A stretch of 64,000 bases of DNA from Deltaproteobacteria bacterium (GTDB lineage: Bacteria; UBA10199; JACPAL01; JAHFST01). Under the pieces are notes generated by a model. It saw nothing but the letters and a program-made list of their open reading frames with translations. It searched no databases and was not told the origin of the DNA. How positions within the stretch are numbered: position 1 is the first letter of the stretch; the number at the start of each line of letters is the position of its first letter. Made by a program: the position numbers and the translations under genes. The DNA lies in the NCBI GenBank assembly GCA_023265625.1, contig JAHFST010000008.1:1-64000 (forward strand). The letters are read 5' to 3'. This document shows positions 12,888 through 30,826 of the stretch, in pieces.

Positions 12888-13915
12888 AAAAAGTAAATGT
12901 GGCTGTCGTGGGAGCGACCGGGGCCGTGGGTCGCGAGATTTTAAAAATCTTGGAAGAGAGAAAATTTCCCATCAAAGAATTGCGCCTCTTGGCCTCGCAG
13001 AAGAGTGTCGGAACTAAGCTGTCATTTGCCGGCAAGGAAGTCGCCGTGCAGGAATTAGGTGATAATTCCTTTCAGGGAATCGAAGTGGCCTTTTTCTCGG
13101 CTGGGGGTTCCATTAGTGAACGGTTTGCACCGATTGCGGCGAAGGCTGGCGCTGTCGTGGTCGATAATACCAGTGCCTTTCGGATGGTTCCGGAAATTCC
13201 CCTGGTTGTTCCGGAGGTGAACCCGCATGCGATCGCCCAATACAAAAATAGGGGGATTATTGCGAATCCGAATTGTTCCACGATCCAGATGGTGGTCGCC
13301 CTGAAACCGATTCACGACAAGGTCAAGATCAAGCGCATTGTGGTGTCCACGTATCAGGCCACCTCGGGCGCGGGACAGAAGGCGATGGATGAGTTGTCCG
13401 GGCAGGTAGCCGCCGTATTTAATCACAAGACGATTGTAAAGAAGGTATTCCCTCATCAAATTGCCTTCAACTGTTTGCCCCATATCGATGTCTTCTTGGA
13501 CAACGGCTATACCAAGGAAGAGATGAAGATGATCTTGGAGACGCAGAAGATCATGGAGGATAAGTCGATTCGCGTGACGGCCACCACGGTGCGTGTGCCG
13601 GTCTTTTGCAGTCATTCAGAGTCGGTCAATATCGAGACGGAACAGAAGCTGCGCGCTACAGAGGCGCGTGAATTGTTGCGCAAGGCCCCGGGCGTCGTGG
13701 TGTGCGATACCCCGGCCAAAAACGAATACCCAATGGCGCTGGATGCCACCGGCAAAGATGAGGTCTTTGTCGGCCGGATTCGCGAGGATGAAAGTATCGC
13801 AAATGGCTTGAATCTTTGGATCGTTGCCGATAACCTCCGCAAGGGGGCCGCGCTCAATGCTATTCAGATCGGTGAGATACTGGTTGAGAAATATCTTTTT
13901 TCAGGGACATCCTGA
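12884..13915 (+). CDS. asd: Aspartate-semialdehyde dehydrogenase
   Basis: Reduces aspartyl phosphate to the semialdehyde, leading to lysine, threonine and methionine. Seen: NADP-binding [19 protein letters not shown] at the N-terminus, the active-site cysteine in [10 protein letters not shown], and [15 protein letters not shown]. Length 343 aa is normal. The last residues (FSGTS) and the stop codon come from a dispersed repeat, TCCTGAGCTTGTCGAAGGA, that overlaps the gene end, so the natural C-terminus was probably slightly different. Confidence 0.94.
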
Positions 13916-13929
13916 GCTTGTCGAAGGAT
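13909..13929. repeat. Dispersed repeat TCCTGAGCTTGTCGAAGGA at the asd stop
   Basis: An imperfect palindrome with ATCCT...AGGAT ends. The same word is common as a dispersed repeat in unrelated proteobacterial genomes (from memory, not searched here). It supplies the TGA stop of asd at 13913-13915. In the frame of the next gene it would read GHPELVEGS, a peptide often seen where this repeat lies in open frames. Confidence 0.7.
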
Positions 13930-13952
13930 CAATTGGCGGCCATGTCCATATT

Positions 13953-16574
13953 ATGTTGGTCTTGCTTCTTGCCTCTTGCCTCTGCATTTTCCCCTCTCTC
14001 CTCCACGCCTTTCCCAATAGTCATCGGGCTCCCACCAGTCTTTCCGTTCCTCCCCTGAATCTCCTGGGGACGACGGCGCAGGCGGACGCGATGATTGTGG
14101 AGAGTGATCGGTATCTTTGGGTGGCGACCGACAACTCCTTGAAGCGGATTGATCTGCAGACATGGAGTCTCACCTCGGATCAGGTGCCAGCCCTGTCAGG
14201 TAACGTTACGGGACTAGCCATTCAAGGGACTACTCTTTTTGCCTCGCAAGATGACGGGGATGTCCTAAAAATTGATCTTACGAATATTACCGCGTCCCCC
14301 ACGAGTTTGACCATTAAGTCCCAGACGAATATTGGTCCGCTTGTGGCGGATACGGAGGGTGGAACGGATGATGATAAGCTCTACATCCTCGACAAAACGA
14401 ATCATAACTTACTGGTGTATGATGTCAGTGCGGCGCAAACGACGACGATAACTTTGTTAGATTCCGCCGGACAGACCGTGACTCCAACTTCGTTGGTATG
14501 GGTCCCGTTTCCCAATTCGACCCTTACAACCACCGTTGATAAAATTTATGTCGCCACGAATGACGGGATTGTCTTTCTGCTCAACGAAGGGGCGGCCTCT
14601 GCCACATCGATTGTGCTCAATAGTACCGACAAAAATTTCCCGTCCATTGCCCGAACCCCGGATAGTTCTTTTGTCTTGGTCCTGGATAGTTCGGGTACGA
14701 CGGTGCATGTCATCAATACGGCCGTTGATACCGAGGTGGATACCGACACACTAACCGCTGGGACCGATCCGATCAGCCTTGCTGAAAATGCCAATCTCAC
14801 CAATCTTCTGATCACCGACGTCTTGATCCCGGATGATGTCTATGCCTATGTGACGGGTGACGACGGGGTTTCAGCGATTGACCTTAATTCGGGTCCATTT
14901 GGTTTTTCTGCGATTGATTTTAGTGACGGTGGTTCTTCCGATACGACGGATGATCCCCTTAATTTAAGCAAGACTCCCGAGCTTTTGTCTGCCACGAGCG
15001 ATACGCTTGGGGATGTTTTTTCCTCCAACAGCGATGGCACCATCTCCGTCATTTCTGATCATCCCTTTGTCACGATTGAGTCCACATCGCTCTCCGGAAA
15101 ACTCAGTACCGGTGGGACATTCACCCTGACCTTTCAGTCCGATGAGGCGGGGACTTATCGGGTTCGGGCGAATGGCGCGCTGACAGAATCAGGGACGGAG
15201 CTTACCTCCGGTACGGTGAGCAGTGCGAATCAAGACGTCACAACTTCCGCGATGAGTTACAGCTCCAGTACTTTTACGGAAGGGACGAATCGAATTTTTG
15301 TGTTTGTCGAGGATAGTGCCGGGAATGTGGGCCATGATGCCATTGATATTACCGTGGATGCCCCGCCTGAGGAGGTTTCGATCTCGGATGTCAATTTCGG
15401 CAATCAGAGGGTTTATGTCACGTTTGTGCCCCTCACGGCCTCTGACATTGATCATTACAATATCTATGTGGATACCAATGCCGTCACGGTTTTGAACAAA
15501 AGTTCGGCCTCCGGCACAATCGATCAATCTGCCGGAGGTAGCCTCTCCATTCAAATCAGTAATCTCACGAATGGGGTGACCTATTTTGTGGCCATCGAAG
15601 GGGTGGATACGAGTGGTAACATCGGGACGCGGAATGGGACCTTGACCAGTGGGGCGGCAGTGAGTGCGACGCCGGAAGAGACGGTGGGACCGGCCCAGGC
15701 GGCTGGTGAGAAGGGGTGTAATTTGGTTCCTGAGAGTCGGGGTGGTTTTGGGGCAGGGTGTTTTATTTTTCTCTCGTGCTTTTTGTTGTTAGCCTTTCGA
15801 TTGTGTCCATGGCGTCCCTGTAGGGGCGTGATTCATCACGCCCAGCATCGTGTGGCACGGGGCCACGCCTGGGGCGCAATAAATTGCGCCCCTACAATAG
15901 CGGGTGATGCCGGGGTCCTGGGCGACCCACCGGGTCGCCCCTACAGGTCCCTGATATTGGCATTAATCATTTTAATTTTCTCAGGTCAGATCCTTCTGGC
16001 CGAAGAAAAAAGCCCGCAGCATTTCTCCATGGAATTCAAAGGCGGGGTTTGGATCCCGACGGATAAGACGCTGAAGGGGTTTCTCAGTTGTTGTCAGCCT
16101 ACTGGCAGTGTAGATTTTGGGTATCTTTATCATTCCAAGTTTGGTGGCGAGGTGGAGGTTGGTTTTAGTGATAGCGCTGGGAGCGCGGTGGGCCTGACCT
16201 CGGGGGCGGCCTCTGGTGATAGATTTCATTTGATGCTGATCCCGATTCAGGGACATGTTACCTTCCGCGGCGATTTTCACGAAAATCAACTTTTTGTACC
16301 CTACGTTAAGGCTGGTCCAGACTTGGTTTATTTTCGCGAGCGCAGTCAGGCCGGCGGGGTGCATGGTTTGAAATATGGATTTCATGGAGTGGTAGGGATA
16401 CAATTTTTGTTAGAGTGGTTTGATGATCTCTCCTTGTACATGGAGAAAGATCTGGGGATTAACGATGTCTACTTGGTGGTGGAGGGGCGGTATGGCTGGA
16501 TCAATAGTTTTGGGGCAAGCGGTTTTGATTTGTCGGGTTTGATGACGACGGCGGGACTTTTATTTGAATTCTAA
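13953..16574 (+). CDS. Secreted beta-propeller/FN3 protein joined in frame to an outer-membrane beta-barrel protein
   Basis: From ATG 13953 (873 aa). A signal peptide (LVLLLASCLCIFPSLLHA) is followed by a repeat region like a beta-propeller (about 36-370: YLWVATDNSLKRIDL, KLYILDKTNHNLLVYDV), an Ig-like region (371-469), a fibronectin III-like domain (473-569), and a C-terminal sorting-type tail with GC, a hydrophobic run (GAGCFIFLSCFLLLAFRL) and arginine. The frame then passes without a stop through palindromic repeat DNA (residues ~623-665) into a second signal peptide (LALIILIFSGQILLAEE) and a ~190-aa barrel-like protein rich in alternating beta strands ending in LLFEF. Two genes probably became one frame, or are still read separately from TTG 15957. 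Confidence 0.65.
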   Translation: MLVLLLASCLCIFPSLLHAFPNSHRAPTSLSVPPLNLLGTTAQADAMIVESDRYLWVATDNSLKRIDLQTWSLTSDQVPALSGNVTGLAIQGTTLFASQDDGDVLKIDLTNITASPTSLTIKSQTNIGPLVADTEGGTDDDKLYILDKTNHNLLVYDVSAAQTTTITLLDSAGQTVTPTSLVWVPFPNSTLTTTVDKIYVATNDGIVFLLNEGAASATSIVLNSTDKNFPSIARTPDSSFVLVLDSSGTTVHVINTAVDTEVDTDTLTAGTDPISLAENANLTNLLITDVLIPDDVYAYVTGDDGVSAIDLNSGPFGFSAIDFSDGGSSDTTDDPLNLSKTPELLSATSDTLGDVFSSNSDGTISVISDHPFVTIESTSLSGKLSTGGTFTLTFQSDEAGTYRVRANGALTESGTELTSGTVSSANQDVTTSAMSYSSSTFTEGTNRIFVFVEDSAGNVGHDAIDITVDAPPEEVSISDVNFGNQRVYVTFVPLTASDIDHYNIYVDTNAVTVLNKSSASGTIDQSAGGSLSIQISNLTNGVTYFVAIEGVDTSGNIGTRNGTLTSGAAVSATPEETVGPAQAAGEKGCNLVPESRGGFGAGCFIFLSCFLLLAFRLCPWRPCRGVIHHAQHRVARGHAWGAINCAPTIAGDAGVLGDPPGRPYRSLILALIILIFSGQILLAEEKSPQHFSMEFKGGVWIPTDKTLKGFLSCCQPTGSVDFGYLYHSKFGGEVEVGFSDSAGSAVGLTSGAASGDRFHLMLIPIQGHVTFRGDFHENQLFVPYVKAGPDLVYFRERSQAGGVHGLKYGFHGVVGIQFLLEWFDDLSLYMEKDLGINDVYLVVEGRYGWINSFGASGFDLSGLMTTAGLLFEF
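15819..15946. repeat. GTAGGGGC-family composite element inside a surface-protein frame
   Basis: The ends are CTGTAGGGGCG (15819 onward) and CGCCCCTACAG (to 15946). Inside are three hairpins with different stem words: GGGCGTGA/TCACGCCC, GGGGCGCAAT/ATTGCGCCCC and GGGCGACCC/GGGTCGCCC, the second and third each closing with CCCTACA. This looks like one two-hairpin element plus an extra half, read through in frame by the surrounding protein. Confidence 0.85.
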
Positions 16575-16583
16575 TCCTATTGC

Positions 16584-16657
16584 CTGTAGGGGCAGACCCA
16601 TGTGTCTGCCCCATGTGGTTGCCGTGGATAGGGCGAACACATGGGTTCGCCCCTACA
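16584..16657. repeat. GTAGGGGC-family two-hairpin element before truA
   Basis: CTGTAGGGGC starts the element. A first hairpin has GGGGCAGAC/GTCTGCCCC, then a spacer of about 20 nt, then a second hairpin with GGGCGAAC/GTTCGCCC closing with CTACA. It ends 1 nt before the truA ATG at 16659 and begins 9 nt after the preceding stop, so it is the whole intergenic region. Confidence 0.88.
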
Positions 16658-16658
16658 T

Positions 16659-17465
16659 ATGCCGCGAAACATCAAATTAACCATCGCCTACGACGGCACC
16701 CGTTACGCCGGTTGGCAGATCCAGCCGGGCAAGGAGACCATCCAAGGGATCCTGACCCGTATCCTGGAAAAAATTTTACAACACAAAGTGACCCTAATCG
16801 GCGCCTCGCGAACGGATGCCGGGGTCCATGCCCTGGGCCAGGTGGCCCATTTTCACACCGAGAGTTCTATCACGGGTTTCAAGTTACTCGGTGCCCTAAA
16901 CGGCCTCTTACCCGAGGATATTGCAGTTCAAGCTGTGCAAGAAGTTGCGCCACAGTTCCATGCACGAAAGTTGGCTAAGAAGAAGACCTATCGTTATCTG
17001 ATTTTGAATAGCGCCATTCGAAACCCCCTGTGGATAACCCGTGCCAGGCACGCGGGTAACCCTCTGAAAATTAAGGAAATGAGACAGGGGGCGCGGTGTT
17101 TGGTGGGGCGGCATGATTTTCGGGCCTTTCAGGGCCGCAAGGCGGCGACGAAGACCTCGGTGCGGACGATTGAATCCATCGTCATCGGATCCTGTAGGGG
17201 CGATCCTTGTGATCGCCCAGGTGCGGACCGAATGGGGCGAATACAAGATTCGCCCCTACGGACATCAAAAATGATCGGTATCACCATTACCGGTAACGGA
17301 TTTTTGAAACAGATGGTCAGAAATATCGTGGGGTTATTGCTGGAAGTAGGAGAGGGAAGACGTTCCCCATCCGATGTGAAAAAAGTCCTGGCCTCACGCG
17401 ATAGAACACAGGCCGGGGCCTGCGCCCCAGCCTGTGGATTGTATCTGATTCAGGTTGATTATTGA
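16659..17465 (+). CDS. truA: tRNA pseudouridine(38-40) synthase with a 23-residue repeat insertion
   Basis: Isomerises uridines 38-40 in tRNA anticodon arms. Seen: LTIAYDGTRYAGWQIQPG at the N-terminus, GASRTDAGVHALGQ with the catalytic aspartate, RHDFRAFQG and GNGFLKQMVRNIVG. Between VRTIESIVIGS and MIGITITGNGF, where family members have a short loop, there are 23 extra codons from a palindromic repeat (17192-17260). The frame is kept. ATG 16659 gives 268 aa; an in-frame ATG at 16641 lies in the upstream repeat. No clear Shine-Dalgarno. It overlaps the convergent Cys-rich gene by 7 bp. Its place after asd is the usual deltaproteobacterial order. Confidence 0.93.
   Translation: MPRNIKLTIAYDGTRYAGWQIQPGKETIQGILTRILEKILQHKVTLIGASRTDAGVHALGQVAHFHTESSITGFKLLGALNGLLPEDIAVQAVQEVAPQFHARKLAKKKTYRYLILNSAIRNPLWITRARHAGNPLKIKEMRQGARCLVGRHDFRAFQGRKAATKTSVRTIESIVIGSCRGDPCDRPGADRMGRIQDSPLRTSKMIGITITGNGFLKQMVRNIVGLLLEVGEGRRSPSDVKKVLASRDRTQAGACAPACGLYLIQVDY
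17192..17260. repeat. GTAGGGGC-family element inserted in frame in truA
   Basis: 69 bp or 23 codons. The 5' hairpin GGGGCGATC/GATCGCCC and the 3' hairpin GGGGCGAAT/ATTCGCCCC are separated by about 15 nt, with outer ends CTGTAGGGG and CCCCTACG. It encodes CRGDPCDRPGADR and onward, a peptide with no similarity to TruA. Confidence 0.9.
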
Positions 17466-30798: not shown

Positions 30799-30826
30799 GT
30801 AGGGGCGACCGGCCGGTCACCCCTAC
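30799..30826. repeat. GTAGGGGC-family palindrome supplying the HPr stop codon
   Basis: GTAGGGGCGACCGG and CCGGTCACCCCTAC form a 28-bp palindrome with one mismatch. On the minus strand the HPr gene reads GAACGG then TAG, the TAG (30823-30825) being part of the element's GTAGGGG end. The hairpin could also act between the HPr and metK transcripts. Confidence 0.88.

Follow-up and report, generated by a model that had tools for sequence, protein, structure and literature searches.

The window, that is, the whole stretch of 64,000 nucleotides analyzed here, contains truA (16659–17465, plus strand), which encodes a tRNA pseudouridine synthase A of 268 amino acids and was assigned on the basis of Pfam PF01416, the alignment, and the fold match to 1dj0. 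The start codon (ATG at 16659) was picked from the alignment, and the stop codon ends at 17465. The gene carries in frame a REPIN of 66 bp at positions 17194–17259 of the plus strand, corresponding to residues 179–201. A REPIN is a non-autonomous inverted pair of REP hairpins, which would be moved by a RAYT, a Y1 HuH transposase. The insert in truA consists of an inverted pair of GTAGGGGC hairpins. Arm 1 (GTAGGGGCGATCCTTGTGATCGCCC; 17194–17218, plus strand) recurs genome-wide, and arm 2 (GTAGGGGCGAATCTTGTATTCGCCC; 17235–17259, minus strand) is inverted, reading GGGCGAATACAAGATTCGCCCCTAC on the strand of the window; the two arms are separated by a 16-nt spacer. As in other REPINs, a GTAG-type tetranucleotide was found at the 5′ foot of the imperfect palindrome, and the two inverted REPs make one hairpin. 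The fold z-score against shuffled sequences was −5.8 for the element as single-stranded DNA and −6.9 as RNA (−46 kcal/mol), and none of the 200 shuffles was as good. The earlier note had placed a two-hairpin element of 69 bp at 17192–17260; its hairpins are real, but the REPIN proper is 66 bp long and the remaining 3 bp are flanking sequence. On the other hand, the 23 codons that the note considered to be added in frame were confirmed, since the turn between VRTI and QM comprises 52 residues here versus 29 in the nearest relative (G001) and in most sequences from outside the class, a difference of 69 nt.

Further elements were observed in the window. A second REPIN of another subtype (16586–16656, plus strand) lies directly upstream of the truA start codon. 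It occupies nearly the entire gap between the stop of the upstream ORF (16574) and the start of truA, and leaves no obvious Shine-Dalgarno sequence ahead of truA. A cluster of three REPs at 15820–15944 lies in frame between two apparent genes, resulting in one ORF of 916 codons (13824–16574). In addition, lone GTAGGGGC palindromes were found at 1880–1907 (perfect) and 30799–30826 (nearly perfect).

Structure of TruA with the insert

The product of truA has the PseudoU_synth_1 domains, the RTDAGVHA motif with the catalytic Asp, and the TruA fold. All the residues that are invariant in the alignment of 20 sequences of the class are retained, including RTD.GVHA with D53, so that the TruA motifs on both sides of the insert are intact as stated in the note. 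An AlphaFold2 model based on an alignment of 42 sequences had a mean pLDDT of 92.9. In this model, residues 181–203 (17199–17267, plus strand) form a disordered loop without regular structure that links the strands 168–179 and 204–212, and the pLDDT falls below 50 at residues 191–197. Foldseek matched the model to E. coli TruA (1dj0) with a TM-score of 0.88, and the alignment of the two sequences breaks at the insert site. The structural check proposed with the note thus gave the expected picture: in the model, the TruA fold is kept and the insert is a disordered loop between two strands. The enzyme is probably active despite the insert. In the mRNA, the very stable hairpin could slow the translation of truA.

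Two interpretations of the insert were ruled out. It is not an ordinary divergent loop, because it is multi-copy repeat DNA, and it is not a truncating insertion, because the frame and the invariant residues are retained. An assembly error or a broken gene also has to be considered; the source genome (G000) is a draft of 2.93 Mb in 37 contigs, and repeats can be misassembled. However, in addition to the retained frame and the full set of invariant residues, a normal sequencing read is longer than the 66-bp repeat, and palindromes occupy the same TruA loop in relatives from other assemblies, which makes an artifact highly improbable.

The repeat family and a matching RAYT in the source genome

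The exact hairpin GTAGGGGCGA-N9-TCGCCC occurred 51 times in the genome and was absent from the reversed control, and the looser hairpin GTAGGGGC-N8..22-GCCC occurred 307 times versus 16 in the reversed control. The family of the truA REPIN is therefore dispersed in many copies in its host genome, and the proposal of the note that the insert is repeat DNA is borne out. Several subtypes of REP arms can be distinguished, and those found in truA recur jointly as inverted pairs.

Ten Y1_Tnp frames were found in the genome. One of them, on contig C36, is a RAYT ORF (L177) with the HuH motif NHIHGI and the Tyr motif NYYERIIRN. This RAYT matches the truA REPIN: its coding sequence contains, in frame, both truA-type REP arms, identical in sequence, in the stretch that separates the HuH motif from the Tyr motif. 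A REP in frame at this location is the feature described for TnpAREP subclass 2.4, and most homologues of the C36 RAYT found in the class likewise hold their own arms in frame. Together, these findings identify the insert in truA as a REPIN, with the C36 protein as its likely transposase.

Regarding the position of these internal elements, the RAYT genes of the class (L177:957–1601; L182–L200) have their own REPIN in frame just past the HuH motif. Both REPIN ends were present in all but one of those inspected, and L191 had one end. Another REPIN copy in the source genome (L204; contig C10, 107011–107154) is flanked on both sides by sequence resembling RAYT coding sequence, and looks as if it had been copied, or left over, from within a RAYT gene.

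In-frame REPs elsewhere in the source genome

The 57 places matching the REP pattern that were taken as loci represent 40 distinct elements, sampled in the order of the contigs rather than at random. Of these 40, 14 are located in frame within conserved proteins. Their hosts are folC (three elements), mutY (two), and, with one element each, metG, mutL, ksgA, dus, truA, and the genes of an LD-carboxypeptidase, an acetyl-CoA synthetase-like enzyme, a glycosyltransferase, and a phosphodiesterase. By our own count, eleven of the 14 fall within Pfam-matched parts of the ORF or in between such parts. Most of the other sampled elements are located at gene borders, and seven of the sampled elements provide the TAG stop codon of the upstream ORF. 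No conserved gene clearly broken by an element was seen among the 40.

The same TruA loop in relatives

The TruA sequences of the class were gathered by whole-genome search. Palindromic elements of three unrelated families were found in the TruA loop of 10 out of 31 class members, namely the window and 9 of 30 relatives. The GTAGGGGC type is present in the window, L041, L043, and L051; the GTCATTGCGAG type in L040, L042, L044, L048, and L052; and the AATCCCCCTT type in L050. The elements of L051 and L052 are eroded, and their type was assigned by eye. L048 and L052 were missed by the z-score scan but included on the basis of their motif, and L056, which has a strong hairpin in the loop belonging to no recognizable repeat family, was not counted. 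Within the class, family f15 alone contains three different fillings of the loop. A second GTAGGGGC palindrome was observed in L041, in frame near codon 69 and outside the loop. According to the earlier note, relatives have a short loop here. The nearest relative indeed lacks the 23 residues, and it and most sequences from outside the class have the short loop, whereas other palindromes occupy this site in roughly one third of the class.

Two of the repeat types that fill the loop were also searched for genome-wide. The GTCATTGCGAG-type palindromes occur in 40–268 copies in the five hosts with one in truA (G033, G007, G018, G020, and G009), and none was found in G000 or G001. A RAYT of the C36 type was not found when looked for in G033, G007, G018, and G009. 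The GTAGGGGCGA form was found in G017, G037, G027, and G032. G001 has no insert in its 29-residue turn, yet its genome contains 47 exact REPs of the GTAGGGGCGA form.

A fold z-score scan was chosen for the comparison of regions; a strict count of perfect stems misses bulged REPINs, including that of the window. In the TruAs of the class, a z-score below −5 was obtained for 16 of 353 scan windows in the loop versus 4 of 1601 elsewhere, and in 76 TruAs from outside the class for 1 of 630 in the loop. No internal element was detected in two control genes, KsgA (29 relatives) and LeuA (21 relatives), the former of which was picked because the source genome carries an insert in it; in one LeuA relative, a REP motif lies at the N-terminal edge. 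The exact motif was present in 6 of 30 TruA relatives versus 0 of 50 controls (Fisher p = 0.002), and with the visually assigned eroded and third-family elements included the count was 9 of 30 (p = 6e-5), both values ignoring the relatedness of the genomes, in which the element counts are not fully independent. A TruA tree from which the loop had been excluded, and in which some nodes are weak, required eight changes for the presence of an element and nine for the element family.

These data bear on whether the landings were independent. A single insertion in an ancestor of the class, with arms swapped later by conversion or by re-insertion into a resident repeat, would be in line with the identical position of the elements and with the right arm that L042 and L044, which belong to the same genus, have in common. 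The closest members of family f6 could also descend from one event, and a single ancestral insertion may account for part of the filled set. As an account of the whole set, however, it is unlikely, given the three unrelated families, the approximately eight changes on the tree, and the short or non-palindromic loops of G001 and many other class members; moreover, re-insertion into a resident repeat is still repeated insertion. The elements might also have been retained by selection, either through a peptide that alters tRNA binding or through an mRNA hairpin that regulates truA. Their recurrence in one loop and the great stability of the RNA hairpin are in agreement with such a function, but the elements of the relatives belong to unrelated families encoding unrelated peptides, the insert is disordered in the model, and many unrelated proteins encoded in the genome contain similar inserts. 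A function of this kind thus appears very unlikely.

Discussion

The insert in truA is very probably the product of a RAYT-driven, nearly neutral REPIN insertion, kept as the loop tolerates it, at a site that is a recurrent landing site. A copy of the REPIN would have landed in the turn between two β strands of TruA with a length and phase that avoid the TAG stop codon within GTAG, and because of this the insert would be read through as a disordered surface loop of 23 residues. The fold of the enzyme appears to survive the insertion, which probably had little or no effect on fitness. We infer that this loop is a recurrent landing site in the class because extra residues are tolerated there; different hosts would therefore have filled it with the palindromes abundant in their own genomes.

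GTAG REPs inside genes have already been described, including one in truA of S. maltophilia and others within truB in several species (Di Nocera et al. 2013, PMC3733652). Since in-frame GTAG REPs, one of them in truA, are on record, the truA REPIN belongs to a known kind. Those intragenic REPs are often inverted dimers and encode 20–30 residues, and GTAG supplies stop codons to flanking ORFs (PMC3733652). The truA REPIN resembles them in its GTAG foot, its palindromic structure, and its arrangement as an inverted dimer inside a gene, and the sampled elements that end an upstream ORF with TAG are also similar. On the other hand, the host lineage differs, and the published REPs occupy different sites in genes that share a functional category, except for recB in two Xanthomonas species, whereas here three families share one TruA loop. 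The inverted doublet, the hairpin, the many copies, and the RAYT with matching arms are also features of the REPIN/RAYT systems (Bertels and Rainey 2011, PMC3116915). Overlap with genes was reported for 14 of 1,067 repeats in P. fluorescens SBW25 (PMC3116915), in contrast to the 14 of 40 elements in frame in conserved genes in our non-random sample. TnpAREP subclass 2.4 is described as having a REP in frame within the transposase gene, placed after the HuH motif and before the Tyr motif (Quentin et al. 2018, PMC6006769), and the C36 RAYT shares this feature. That description concerns neither truA nor the present class.

The earlier note had suggested an independent process similar to that of the Rickettsia palindromic elements (RPEs). 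The outcome, an in-frame palindromic insertion in a protein gene, is indeed alike. However, RPEs are about 150 bp long (reviewed in PMC10969869), whereas the element in truA is a GTAG REPIN of 66 bp with a RAYT and in another host group, and the process already has a name, that of GTAG-type REPINs and RAYTs. No description of unrelated palindromic families repeatedly occupying a single TruA loop was found in the main texts of the open-access papers searched.

More tentatively, the REPINs of this class may be protein-compatible mobile elements. With the source copy in frame in the RAYT gene, coding constraint would keep it free of stop codons, and conserved proteins might repeatedly gain short disordered loops from its dispersed copies, the TruA turn being a preferred landing site of REPINs and of unrelated palindromic families. 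In-frame REPs seem to be far commoner in this bacterial group than in the well-studied pseudomonads. With empty loops and loops filled by at least three unrelated repeat families available for comparison at one site of a widespread tRNA-modification enzyme, the way in which mobile DNA lengthens proteins can be tested directly.
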